Source of the DNA: Candidatus Hopanoidivorans cymbastelae
GTDB lineage: Bacteria > Actinomycetota > Acidimicrobiia > Acidimicrobiales > Hopanoidiivorantaceae
Direction of reading: 5' to 3'
Length of the DNA: 48,413 nucleotides
Assembly (NCBI GenBank): GCA_028283145.1
Contig: JAPYNY010000061.1
Span: 1-48,413 of the forward strand
A program made the translations under genes and the position numbers. The notes under the pieces are model-generated. The model was not told where the DNA came from. It made no database searches and saw nothing but the letters and a program-made list of their open reading frames with translations. Shown here piece by piece: positions 10,613-34,987 of the stretch. Positions within the stretch are counted from its first letter, which is position 1, and every line of letters starts with the position of its first letter.

Positions 10613-11395
10613 ATGGAATTTTCACACAAATTTGAAGTAGAAGCCAAAATAGACGATGTATGGGCTGTCATGAATGACGTTGAGCGCATCGCGCCTTGCT
10701 TGCCCGGAACTCAACTCAAGGAGATAGACGGTGACGAATATCACGGCATTATCAAGGTGAAGGTCGGCCCCATCGGGGCTCAGTACAAGGGTGTGGCCAA
10801 GTTTGAGTCCATTGATTCCCAGGCCCGAAAAATTGTCTTGGCTGCTTCGGGGAGAGACATCAAGGGTTCAGGCAATGCCCGCGCCAATATCGCTGTGGCC
10901 CTCCAGGAAGGTTCGAGCCAGGATTTCACTGAGGTTGAGGTGGAAATTCAACTGAACATATCTGGCAAGGTAGCTCAGTTCGGGCGAGGTGTGCTGACTG
11001 ACGTGAATGCCAAGCTTATGGAAAAGTTTGCTCAGAATTTGAGCGAGATGATCACCAGCGGCGCGACGGCAGCCCAGGACGAAGCGGCATCTGACGGCGC
11101 GGTTCAACATGACTCGGCGGCCGGTGACGGGGTTAGCGAAAGCGCGGCTAGCGACGAAGGGGTTGGTGCAGATGCGCCAGTCAGCGACACCGCCCCCGAA
11201 TCCCTTGGCCGCGAAACCCCCGCCCCCGAGAGAAAAATCATAGATTCGCCCGAGCCTGAACCCGTTGATTTGATCGCAACCACTAGTTCAGGCAAAATCA
11301 AGGCAGCCAAGGTGGCGGTGATAGGTTTTTTCGCAGTTGTGGGGCTGTGGCTGCTGAGGAAGCTGCGAAGAAGAAAGTCGAAGTCAAAGCCATAG
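10613..11395 (+). CDS. CoxG-like SRPBCC membrane-anchored protein
   Basis: Residues 1-150 form the SRPBCC fold of the CoxG family (KFEVEAKIDDVWAVMNDVERI, ACLPGTQL-type segment near 30, VKVGPIGAQYKG near 51). An Asp/Ala/Glu-rich linker of about 65 residues follows. A single membrane helix (VAVIGFFAVVGLWLL) and a basic tail (RKLRRRKSKSKP) put the folded domain on the cytoplasmic side. CoxG tethers CO dehydrogenase to the membrane and hands electrons to quinone in studied systems. AGGAG precedes the ATG. It closes the cox/xdh accessory group; no catalytic subunits are in the window. Confidence 0.88.
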   Translation: MEFSHKFEVEAKIDDVWAVMNDVERIAPCLPGTQLKEIDGDEYHGIIKVKVGPIGAQYKGVAKFESIDSQARKIVLAASGRDIKGSGNARANIAVALQEGSSQDFTEVEVEIQLNISGKVAQFGRGVLTDVNAKLMEKFAQNLSEMITSGATAAQDEAASDGAVQHDSAAGDGVSESAASDEGVGADAPVSDTAPESLGRETPAPERKIIDSPEPEPVDLIATTSSGKIKAAKVAVIGFFAVVGLWLLRKLRRRKSKSKP

Positions 11396-11477
11396 TTGCG
11401 CCATAGTTGCCTGACAGACAGCGGCAGTAGCCCCCGGCAGCCGAAGGCAGTCCAAGAGGCAGGGTGAGTTTACTTCA

Positions 11478-11921
11478 TTGGATCTAAAAGACTGGGACGA
11501 TGTGTCCGCTCTGTTGGGCAGAGAGCCTAGATGCTGCTTTGAAGTGGTAGTGCGCACCGACGCCGGGGATCCAAGGGTCATCAAGAATGATCCGCTGTTG
11601 TTTGACGGCACGCCTATGCCAACCCTTTACTGGCTGGTAGATCGCCAGGACTGCAAGCGCGTCTCACAGCTTGAGTCAAAAGGCGGTGTGGGCCTGGCAG
11701 AACAAGCAGTGCCGGCTGCCGCCCTAGCCCAAGCGCATCTGGCCTATGCCCGACAACGAGACGCCCAGCTACCTGAGGGTTACCAAGGGCACAGGCCGTC
11801 AGGGGGTGTTGGAGGCTGTGCCGTAGGGGTGAAATGTCTTCACGCCCACTACGCCTGGTTCCTGGCGGGAGGCGATGACCCGGTGGGTTCTTGGGTGAAA
11901 GACCAGTTGGATCTAGCCTGA
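11478..11921 (+). CDS. DUF501 family protein
   Basis: The 147-aa protein has the DUF501 hallmarks: RCCFEVVVRT and VIKNDPLLFDGTPMPTLYWL in the N-terminal half, VSQLESKGGV in the middle and VKCLHAHYAWFLAGGDDPVG near the C terminus. The conserved Cys-Leu-His-Ala-His is intact. The function is not established, but the family typically sits directly before ppx in actinobacteria, as here, where its TGA shares one base with the ppx ATG. The start is TTG 11478, without a strong ribosome site. Confidence 0.9.
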   Translation: MDLKDWDDVSALLGREPRCCFEVVVRTDAGDPRVIKNDPLLFDGTPMPTLYWLVDRQDCKRVSQLESKGGVGLAEQAVPAAALAQAHLAYARQRDAQLPEGYQGHRPSGGVGGCAVGVKCLHAHYAWFLAGGDDPVGSWVKDQLDLA

Positions 11922-12844
11922 TGGCTGTTGTGGCTGCCATAGATTGTGGCACACACTCGACTCGGCTGCTTATCAACAAGTCCACCGCCGACCCCGCTCG
12001 CACTCAAATTCTTGAGCGCCAAATGACCATCACCAATCTGGGAGAAAACCTGTCGCACACAGGCAGGTTGTCGGCAGGCGCTATTGAGCGAACCTGCCAG
12101 TGTGTCAAGGACTATGTCCAATTGATGGCAACCCACGGAGTGGAGGCCTTTCGCATTGTCGCAACTTCGGCTGCCAGAGACGCCGCCAATACAGAGGAGT
12201 TTTTTGCTGCCGTTGCCCAAGTTTCCGGTCAAGCTCCCGAATTGCTGTCTGGCGAAGCTGAGGCCGCCTTGGCTTTCAAAGGCGCGACCAGCCAGCTAAA
12301 CCCCCAGGACGGCCCGTTTCTGGTCTGCGACATTGGAGGTGGATCCACCGAGTTTGCCTTAGGGTCAAGCTGCTGCGAAGGCACTTGGTCGGCTGACGTT
12401 GGCAGCAGTCGCCTGACCCAGCAATACATTGCCCACGACCCGCCGCTGCCTGAAGAGCTGACGGCGTGTCTTTCAGTGGTGGAGGCGCACCTGGAAGATC
12501 TGGCGCGGGTGCTGCCGGCTGCCAAACAAGCACGTCAGCTAGTTGGTCTAGCGGGAACCGTTACCACCGCAGCCGCGGTTGAAATAGGATTAGCTATATA
12601 CGACCCGAATGTTGTGCATCACTTCAAGCTCACCAAAGCAGCGGCAGAGGATGTGTTTCGCACGCTGGCCACAGAAAGCAGGGAACAACGGCTGTCCAAT
12701 CCTGGGCTTCACCCCGGCAGGGCAGATGTGATAGTCGGCGGTTTGTGCGTGCTGGTGAAGACAATGCGCTTTTTTGAATTTGAAAACTGCCTGGTTTCGG
12801 AAGCCGATCTGCTAGACGGAATAATTGCCGAGCTAAGCATTTGA
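11921..12844 (+). CDS. ppx: Ppx/GppA exopolyphosphatase family protein
   Basis: The 307-aa protein has the ASKHA ATPase-like fold of exopolyphosphatase/pppGpp phosphohydrolase: AAIDCGTHSTRLL at the N terminus, ATSAARDA, CDIGGGSTEFAL near 143 and GLAGTVTT near 213. It is the short form without the C-terminal HD-type domain, as in actinobacterial Ppx1/Ppx2. ATG 11921 in a TGATG overlap with DUF501 is preferred to the upstream in-frame start at 11891. It likely degrades long-chain polyphosphate or handles (p)ppGpp-linked signals; the two are not separable by sequence. Confidence 0.93.
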   Translation: MAVVAAIDCGTHSTRLLINKSTADPARTQILERQMTITNLGENLSHTGRLSAGAIERTCQCVKDYVQLMATHGVEAFRIVATSAARDAANTEEFFAAVAQVSGQAPELLSGEAEAALAFKGATSQLNPQDGPFLVCDIGGGSTEFALGSSCCEGTWSADVGSSRLTQQYIAHDPPLPEELTACLSVVEAHLEDLARVLPAAKQARQLVGLAGTVTTAAAVEIGLAIYDPNVVHHFKLTKAAAEDVFRTLATESREQRLSNPGLHPGRADVIVGGLCVLVKTMRFFEFENCLVSEADLLDGIIAELSI

Positions 12845-12879
12845 CCGCCCCGCCCACGCTTTAGCCACAGACCCCAATC

Positions 12880-33041: not shown

Positions 33042-33890
33042 TTATGGCAAGGGGACAACGACTCTGTTGGCGGAGGTGTCATACAGTTCACATGTGTTGG
33101 TCTTGGGGTTGACTTGAACTATATGATTTTCATTTTGATATTCTGTAGAATCGTCAATGGGCAATAGTTTAATTTGTCCTGGTATTGGATTGCCTGGTGG
33201 AGCACCAAAAATAGGTGGTGGTTGGGCGTTTCTTATTGGAGCTCTTGAGCCTCTGAAATAAACTAGAGTCTCTATTTCTTCTTGCGAAAGGCCAAAGCCT
33301 CCTCCAACGCCTTGCATCCATTCCCTTGCAGCAATTGTTTCAATTTCTACCGGGTTTGAAAATAGCGCAAGTGGATAGGGATTGCTAAGACTTGGCGCAA
33401 ATCCATCTATAGCCAATGGATTCCCGGTGCTGAAGAAGAATGCGTCAGCTGCATCTACTTCGTCACTCTCTGTGGTAGAAAAAAAGTCATCCAGATTCGG
33501 GCCAGTTGAAATTACTGGAAAACTTTGAGCATTCTGTGGTGGCAGGTCAAGGTAATAGCAGGCAGGTCTGCAGCCGACTTTGCTGCTGGTGACGCCGCCA
33601 CTGCCATCGGGACCACCCACGCCGCGGGCTTGGGCCTCCAAGTCATGGGTTTCCCATTGCTCGCATCTAGCCTCCAGGTCGCTGGTTTGGTCTTCCAAGT
33701 CGTCAGAAGCGCTTCCTGTGATGGCAACGATTATGACCCCGGCTGCCACGGCCATCAACACCAGCACTGCGGTGATGATCAGGGTTTGAAGGGTGATGCC
33801 TCTTTGGTCGTTGGGGGCATGCCCGGAACGAATAACTCCGCGCAGGGGGGGGGTCAGCCTAAATGCTCTGCCATTTTTCAAATTCAGCAT
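33042..33890 (-). CDS. prepilin-like exported protein, paralogue A, with C9 tract
   Basis: This 282-aa protein belongs to no family I recognise. After a basic 30-residue leader comes R-G-ITLQTLIITAVLVLMAVAAG, a hydrophobic helix preceded by Gly as in type IV prepilins, but without the usual Glu at position 5 of the mature form. The rest (about 220 residues) would be outside the membrane, Ser/Pro/Asn-rich, with paired Cys (KVGCRPACYY) and a terminal C-E-L-Y-D-T-S. A run of nine G on the plus strand (33845-33853; C in the gene) occupies codons 13-16, ahead of the helix, and no in-frame start follows it. Loss or gain of one base would silence the gene. The paralogue is 34202-34987. Confidence 0.85.
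   Translation of the reverse strand: MLNLKNGRAFRLTPPLRGVIRSGHAPNDQRGITLQTLIITAVLVLMAVAAGVIIVAITGSASDDLEDQTSDLEARCEQWETHDLEAQARGVGGPDGSGGVTSSKVGCRPACYYLDLPPQNAQSFPVISTGPNLDDFFSTTESDEVDAADAFFFSTGNPLAIDGFAPSLSNPYPLALFSNPVEIETIAAREWMQGVGGGFGLSQEEIETLVYFRGSRAPIRNAQPPPIFGAPPGNPIPGQIKLLPIDDSTEYQNENHIVQVNPKTNTCELYDTSANRVVVPLP
33845..33853. repeat. homopolymer (9 G) in paralogue A
   Basis: Nine consecutive G on the plus strand, C in the coding strand, at codons 13-16 of paralogue A. Such tracts slip readily during replication. The length seen keeps the frame open. Confidence 0.9.
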
Positions 33891-34201
33891 AAATAGTAAT
33901 ATATAGTGATTTTGAATATATTACCTTCCTTACTATAAAATCAATAAAATTTTGTTTGGTGGCTGGTTTCAAGCTGCACTCAATTTTGAATTTAGGGTTT
34001 GTATATTTCGCTGACATTTATTGGGGGATTGATTATTTTTTGGGCTTGTGAGTGCTTGCATGCGTTCTGATTTCTGCAGCGGATTCTGGTTTAGAGGTGT
34101 TTGGGAATGTTGGTCTGAAGTGTTATTGTGGCAGGTGCAAAAATAATATAGTAAGGTAGTTCATAATCAACAAGCACAATAAAGAAAGAGAGTAATAAAT
34201 T
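33891..34201. other. AT-rich divergent intergenic region of the paralogue pair
   Basis: This 311-base stretch has no gene and is much more AT-rich than the rest of the window. A related element lies on each side in opposite orientation: ATAGTAAGGAAGGTA read on the minus strand (33936-33922) and ATAGTAAGGTA on the plus strand (34148-34158), each upstream of one gene. They may be matched promoter or regulator sites. A-T-rich -10-like sequences are too common here to choose one. Confidence 0.6.
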
Positions 34202-34987
34202 ATGATGACCATCAATATAGTTGCAGCAGGGGTGGTGGCGATTGCTGCTGCTTTGTCAATCCGCCAAGCTTTTGGATTGCGCGCAGCCGGTAGGCACGGT
34301 TTCGCTCGGCAGGTGGCAGGTTCGGCTGATTCTATGCGGGGGGGGGGTCTGTCTGCGTGTGAACGAGGCATCACCCTTCAGACTCTGATCGTCACCGCGG
34401 TCCTAGTGCTGATGGCCGTAGCCGCCGGCGTGGTCATCGTGGCCATTACCAACAGTTCTTCAGACGACCTTGAGGAACAATCTCCCGACCTTGAAAGCCG
34501 ATGTAATGGAGCGGAAATCTACGACCCGATTCTGGCAGCCGCCGGTGTTGAAGGCGAAGTAGTAGGCACTGTAGCAGCAGCGGGATCAGATCCTGCAGAA
34601 GAAGTGAATTTGAAAGGAAGCGCAGTCGGGTGCATCCCAGTCTGCTTCTATATTGAAGATGCTGGCGGAGACGAAAAAATAAGCATAGAAGAAGTAAGGT
34701 TTATTCGTGAATGGAGTGAATATAGTGACGCAAAAAACTTTTTGCGGGCTGTAGTTCCCCAAGGGGGTGGAGAAGAATTTGCTGCCTTGTTCAGGAACCC
34801 AACTACATTAGTTACTCCACTCCCTGGCCCTAATGATGCTGATCTTCCTGTTGACCCTTATGGACCATCACTCACGGATGGTCAGTTTGCTTCTTCTCCG
34901 GTCGATGCTGCGGAGGTTCGTGTGGGGCCAGGCCAGGATGATTGTTTCATTTACAACAGCAGCGGTCAGATAGCCGAGGAAAGATAG
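34202..34987 (+). CDS. prepilin-like exported protein, paralogue B, with G10 tract
   Basis: The 261-aa protein is the divergent partner of 33042-33890. Both share R-G-ITLQTLI-TAVLVLMAVAAGV, then SDDLE-Q--DLE-RC, the V-G-C-x-P-x-C motif and a terminal C-x-I/L-Y-N/D-S/T-S. Between these the sequences differ strongly. This copy has a longer N terminus (56 residues, with a weak hydrophobic stretch at 4-20) before the Gly-Ile junction. Ten G (34338-34347) at codons 46-49 lie 7 residues before that junction. GAGAG 9 nt before ATG 34202 supports the start; ATG 34334, immediately before the tract, is an alternative. A similar function and phase-variable expression are inferred. Confidence 0.85.
   Translation: MMTINIVAAGVVAIAAALSIRQAFGLRAAGRHGFARQVAGSADSMRGGGLSACERGITLQTLIVTAVLVLMAVAAGVVIVAITNSSSDDLEEQSPDLESRCNGAEIYDPILAAAGVEGEVVGTVAAAGSDPAEEVNLKGSAVGCIPVCFYIEDAGGDEKISIEEVRFIREWSEYSDAKNFLRAVVPQGGGEEFAALFRNPTTLVTPLPGPNDADLPVDPYGPSLTDGQFASSPVDAAEVRVGPGQDDCFIYNSSGQIAEER
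34338..34347. repeat. homopolymer (10 G) in paralogue B
   Basis: Ten consecutive G in the coding strand, just after ATG 34334 (internal Met45), at the same place relative to the membrane segment as the tract in paralogue A. The reading frame across it is open in this sequence. Confidence 0.9.

Follow-up and report, generated by a model that had tools for sequence, protein, structure and literature searches.

Intragenic poly-G/C tracts as probable phase-variation switches in a pilin-like surface-protein family of Candidatus Hopanoidivorans cymbastelae

This study focused on a 48,413-nucleotide stretch of DNA from Candidatus Hopanoidivorans cymbastelae (Acidimicrobiales), referred to here as the window, and specifically on two divergent genes within it that specify related, putatively pilin-like surface proteins, each with a long G/C homopolymer inside its coding sequence. 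Judged from sequence, these tracts and their counterparts in paralogous genes very probably act as slipped-strand phase-variation (contingency) switches. Host-associated bacteria are known to use poly-G tracts for random gene switching. Here such tracts occur genome-wide, and literature searches (judged from search results only) turned up no previous account of this kind of switching in the Acidimicrobiales or, more broadly, of tract-based phase variation in the Acidimicrobiia.

In the proposed mechanism, each gene would open with a leader that has a start codon of its own, preceded in the subfamily of the plus-strand gene by a ribosome-binding-site-like sequence, and this leader would be followed by the homopolymer, a prepilin-like helix, and the surface-exposed body. 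Replication slippage that gains or loses one base would then place the body in or out of the leader frame. The length would change within a population, the out-of-frame (OFF) state would presumably yield no protein, and the cells of one population would come to carry different random sets of surface proteins.

Paralogues and their frame states

The initial annotation had placed tracts of 9 and 10 bases inside the coding sequences of both window genes, with no in-frame start codon between tract and helix. Both points were borne out by the coordinates and open reading frames (ORFs): G9 (33845-33853) and G10 (34338-34347) were confirmed and are the only G/C runs of at least 9 in the window, and neither gene has an ATG, GTG or TTG in frame between its tract and the helix. 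The two genes were also said to be paralogues with tracts at the same place relative to the helix, which holds in part. They do belong to one family, sharing the helix motif GITLQTLI(I/V)TAVLVLMAVAAG, and both tracts lie in the leader before the helix, but the spacing is 44 nucleotides (nt) in the minus-strand gene and 19 nt in the plus-strand gene. The genes are of different subfamilies, with C-sense and G-sense runs and unrelated leaders, so their tracts occupy equivalent positions without being homologous. The argument that two such tracts would be unlikely by chance did not hold for the window alone, which contains three overlapping 9-mers against 0.93 expected, a number matched in 12 of 100 shuffles. 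The window runs alone were therefore not decisive, and the whole genome was used, a draft of 90 contigs and 2.33 Mb, which was sampled by regions.

Across the genome 39-42 matches to the plus gene were found, giving a family of about 40; the initial annotation had missed this wider family and the non-equivalence of the two window copies. Twelve paralogues, the plus gene included, share a leader of the form M(M/L)(T/A)xxI(V/I)AAGxxxxAAxLxIRQ..., followed by a G-run, a short linker ending in R, and then GITLQT, so that the tract sits just 5' of the 'ERGITLQT' helix; AAGGAG is the ribosome-binding-site-like sequence in paralogues of the plus gene. In the plus gene, the 136 nt leader, G10, and 19 nt linker add up to 55 codons and the body is in frame (ON). 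The 11 further leader paralogues carry G9 in ten cases and G7 in one. Four of them have the geometry of the window gene modulo 3 (three on contig C36, one on contig C21); with G9 they are out of frame and specify products of only 51-61 amino acids, which means that among paralogues of the same geometry a one-base difference in length shifts the downstream frame, G10 being in and G9 out. Five others require n mod 3 = 2, and with tracts of 9 (7 in one) all are out of frame, while two on contig C48 require n mod 3 = 0 and are in frame with tracts of 9. Altogether 3 of the 12 are ON and 9 are OFF, close to the one third expected for random states (p = 0.76). A copy at C26:27682 has an interrupted run and a truncated body.

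Relatives without a tract (contig C43) have a similar leader joined directly in frame, which supports the view that the leader is coding. Stops in the leader frame were found in none of the 12 copies, compared with 12 and 10 copies in the other two frames, and leader differences fall most often at the third codon position (584, versus 439 and 352; these are pairwise counts and are not independent). The bodies of the OFF copies remain open and gave a ratio of nonsynonymous to synonymous substitution (dN/dS) of 0.32, falling to 0.09 when only the first 60 codons are taken. Annotators are cautioned that the OFF copies are unlikely to be pseudogenes. Also on contig C43 are two distant family members (12325-12864 and 11172-11726, minus strand; L017), with the helix VVATVAFVALVASAFLALIIANTTSS in place of GITLQT.

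Genome-wide runs and tract-bearing genes

Exact G-runs on either strand of the window genome numbered 43 for G7, 8 for G8, 40 for G9, 23 for G10, 3 for G11, and 1 for G12. Extrapolation from shorter runs predicts 2-6 runs of at least 9, whereas 67 were found, with a gap at G8. In 57 other genomes of the order there were mostly 0-10 such runs, and the few high counts came from clustered or contig-end runs. The surface-protein family, about 1.6% of the genome, contains 20 of the 67 tracts (30%; p about 4e-20). The genes that bear the remaining tracts specify mainly restriction-modification enzymes and leucine-rich-repeat (LRR) secreted proteins, the former including type ISP (contigs C20, C52, C48), Eco57I/MmeI-type (C26, C47, C63), DUF1156, N6/N4 methylase, and HsdM-S genes.

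In type ISP genes there are several G/C-tracts, mostly toward the C-terminal specificity end (C20:51803/52039/56186, C52:35152/35309, C48:9593/9855), where frame changes could alter specificity as well as switch the enzyme off. Similar large ORFs with multiple tracts occur in a congener (described below), at C1:282251-285894 and 1094620-1095040. In the LRR secreted proteins the G-tract lies within the hydrophobic core of the signal peptide, in frame at C18:28931 (L067:8120-6636), and out of frame at C49:37035 (L019) and C87:21017 (L091). C-tracts were also seen just 5' of the likely starts of aldehyde dehydrogenase, thiolase, and PAPS reductase genes (C13:11, C49:75009, C84:32061), and are possible promoter or 5'-leader switches.

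These data bear on a silent cassette store, in which OFF copies would not be expressed but would donate sequence by recombination to a small number of expressed genes, as with Neisseria pilin, and the tract would only silence the donors. The scattering of about 40 copies, conserved at the ends and variable in the middle, would suit such a store, as would the identical bodies of two congener copies. Classic silent cassettes, however, lack a 5' end, whereas each OFF copy here still has a start and a ribosome-binding-site-like sequence of its own and is set apart from the ON copies by tract length, and the same tracts occur in unrelated gene classes. This explanation is very unlikely.

Related genomes

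The congener is OY282367.1 (G001), an independently assembled, single-contig metagenome-assembled genome of an uncultured Acidimicrobiales bacterium. It contains 62 runs of at least 9, with the same gap at 8. Of the 13 family members found there, 9 have a tract in the leader; it is usually poly-C, and these leaders do not resemble that of the window plus gene. The leader of the window minus gene (MLNLKNGRAFRLTPPLRGV...) is similar to the congener's C9 leaders (GTPPRLRPESSHTER). Two congener genes of one shared geometry differ in tract length, 937411 having C9 and being out of frame, and 939682 having C10 and being in frame. In two genes of a sister genus (G002), C13 separates a related helix from an ATG leader that has a ribosome-binding-site-like sequence, and the two parts are out of frame. 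Large proteins of this genus (C144 = L148, C176 = L149) have the related helix GIALPTVIITAVLALAA after C13-C14, with the ATG leader out of frame in 2 of 3. No member of the family turned up in the remaining 57 genomes of the order, nor were relatives found in viral contigs.

Strand of the long runs

In both the window genome and the congener, about 96-97% of long G runs are on the leading replication strand, whatever the direction of the gene. The congener has the G of 60 of its 62 long runs on one strand per replichore (null maximum, 49/62), with strand switch points at 0.93 Mb and about 1.9-2.07 Mb, and dnaA at 2.036 Mb. The bias of its shorter runs is weak, at 52-60% for lengths 3-5 and 74% at length 6. 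On window-genome contigs with at least two tracts, 49 of the 52 tracts match the majority strand of their contig, compared with 51-60% for runs of 1-6. This rule explains why both window tracts have G on the plus strand even though the genes diverge. We consider it somewhat more probable than not that this actinobacterial lineage has a replication-oriented phasome, in which long G runs are kept almost only on the leading strand, and replication geometry rather than coding decides between poly-G and poly-C; a single cell would in this way switch several restriction systems and pilin-like genes by the dozen. A tandem array in the congener (50423-53527; L096) consists of 44 copies of a unit of about 72 bp, each with a C7 run. 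An apparent lagging-strand excess of congener G7 runs was rejected, as this one array supplies 44 of the 54 runs.

The strand rule would also fit neutral, strand-biased expansion, in which weak indel (insertion/deletion) repair and a leading-strand G bias let long runs grow anywhere, with no selection for switching. In keeping with this, MutS_V was not found in the window genome or the congener (assemblies rated about 89% complete), and not all tracts are in clear surface or restriction genes. NucS of M. smegmatis does not repair indels of 1-2 bp (PMC11551767). Neutral growth does not, however, account for the concentration of tracts in one small family, for G8 being rare while G9 and G10 are abundant, unlike a smooth growth tail, or for the recurrence of runs in non-homologous leaders of three species, and is highly improbable.

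Programmed recoding would make genomic length nearly irrelevant, as ribosomal frameshifting or transcriptional slippage would always join leader and body. Runs of at least 9 are slippery for polymerases in general, and some transcriptional slippage is plausible here. Nevertheless, reading in frame requires n mod 3 to be 0, 1 or 2 depending on the paralogue, the sense is G or C, and tract-less relatives require no shift; a fixed recoding rule is rejected because the frame offsets to be bridged differ between copies, leaving this explanation barely credible. The chance that the tracts are assembly or sequencing artefacts is close to negligible: the window genome is a 90-contig draft, and a few other genomes of the order (G036, G037, G057) have clustered or contig-end poly-G junk, but here the tracts fall within genes, at a single homologous position, the same spectrum is seen in the independently assembled congener, and the leading-strand rule, unlike read errors, follows replication.

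The phase-variable layout proposed at the outset is thus supported by the 12-paralogue split, frame states, over-represented runs, gene classes, and recurrence in relatives, and also by the constraint on OFF copies, the lack of a detected MutS, and the leading-strand position of the G runs. Several points weigh against slipped-strand switching. Variability within the population is a prediction from assembled sequence, and individual ON/OFF calls are uncertain because a consensus assembly may be off by one base in the length of a homopolymer. The leader dN/dS is moderately low, at 0.49-0.53, and reaches 0.80 in the contig C36 trio. Congener family members with a tract are mostly in frame (7 of 9, with 2 out), and the in-frame ATG of the window minus gene has no clear ribosome-binding site. 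Lastly, the description of the family proteins as exposed pilin-like subunits is tentative, as detailed in the next section.

Nature of the proteins and features of the window

Like type IV pilins, the family proteins have Gly at -1 followed immediately by a hydrophobic helix, G-(I/F/Y)TLQ(T/A)L(I/V)VTAVLVL being nearly invariant, and tract-less members have short leaders, such as MSEK-GYTLQ. The Glu at +5 of type IV pilins is replaced by Thr or Ala in all 17 aligned members. No Pfam pilin match was obtained for the family proteins, and matches of NCBIfam and Pfam to the helix were sub-threshold, as was the GspH profile (E 0.0075-0.22). The LPXTG sorting motif is absent from the two window proteins. 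Genes for a prepilin peptidase and a T2SSF platform protein are present in the genome but unlinked to the family loci. The structure model was too weak to bear on pilin identity (predicted local distance difference test, pLDDT, 61), and Foldseek gave no match. The features of the two genes are listed in Table 1.

Table 1. Positions of the two divergent family genes in the window and of their component features.
Feature	Position	Strand	Basis
Pilin-like surface-protein gene, 261 amino acids; in frame (ON) with G10	34202..34987	+	ORF and frame analysis
Ribosome-binding-site-like purine-rich stretch GAAAGAGAG, 5' of leader ATG	34184..34192	+	Sequence
Leader MMTINIVAAGVVAIAAALSIRQ... with hydrophobic stretch	34202..34337	+	Conserved, and frame-0 stop-free in 12/12 paralogues
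G10 tract, proposed slippage switch; in frame if n mod 3 = 1	34338..34347	+	
Hydrophobic helix GITLQTLIVTAVLVLMAVAAGVVIVAIT, prepilin-like motif after ER-G	34367..34450	+	Alignment; structure-model helix 3-28
Body of plus gene; ends conserved, middle highly variable among paralogues	34451..34984	+	Alignment
Divergent family member of other subfamily, 282 amino acids; in frame with C9	33042..33890	-	
C9 in coding strand (G9 on +), inside leader MLNLKNGRAFRLTPPLRGV...	33845..33853	-	
Hydrophobic helix GITLQTLIITAVLVLMAVAAGVIIVAITG of minus gene	33714..33800	-	

Comparison with known systems and implications

The closest demonstrated precedent is the pilus switch of another actinobacterium, Bifidobacterium breve UCC2003, in which replication slippage at G-tracts was shown to switch the sortase-dependent pilus genes bbr_0113 and bbr_1889 (PMC9187656). 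There, as in the family described here, a leader ORF with its own start is followed by an intragenic G-tract and a pilin body in another frame, and slippage restores a single coding sequence and pili; switching is demonstrated in that case and inferred in the present one (PMC9187656). The differences are also considerable, with two loci in B. breve and about 40 genes here, and with a Sec signal and LPXTG motif in bifidobacterial pilins as opposed to a prepilin-like helix and no LPXTG.

In scale, the system resembles the poly-G phasome of Campylobacter, with dozens of G/C tracts per genome (PMC6321876). The length peaks are likewise at 9 and 10, at 52% and 30% in Campylobacter (PMC6321876) and at 60% and 34% of runs of at least 9 here. 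It differs from the Campylobacter phasome in that both senses are common, with G on the leading replication strand, and in the gene families involved. The tract-bearing type ISP, Eco57I/MmeI, N6/N4 methylase, and HsdM-S genes recall phasevarions, but the putatively switching type ISP genes have several tracts, mostly at the specificity end, and this in two species.

If the interpretation of the tracts as slipped-strand switches is correct, an uncultured lineage of Acidimicrobiales would possess a phasome of Campylobacter size, one that takes in a large pilin-like family along with LRR secreted proteins and numerous restriction systems. This would indicate a strong diversifying pressure, from phage, host, or both. 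Metagenome reads would allow a direct test of the phasome, and the strand rule would suggest, in a form that can be tested, how long G runs originate and persist in bacteria without MutS.
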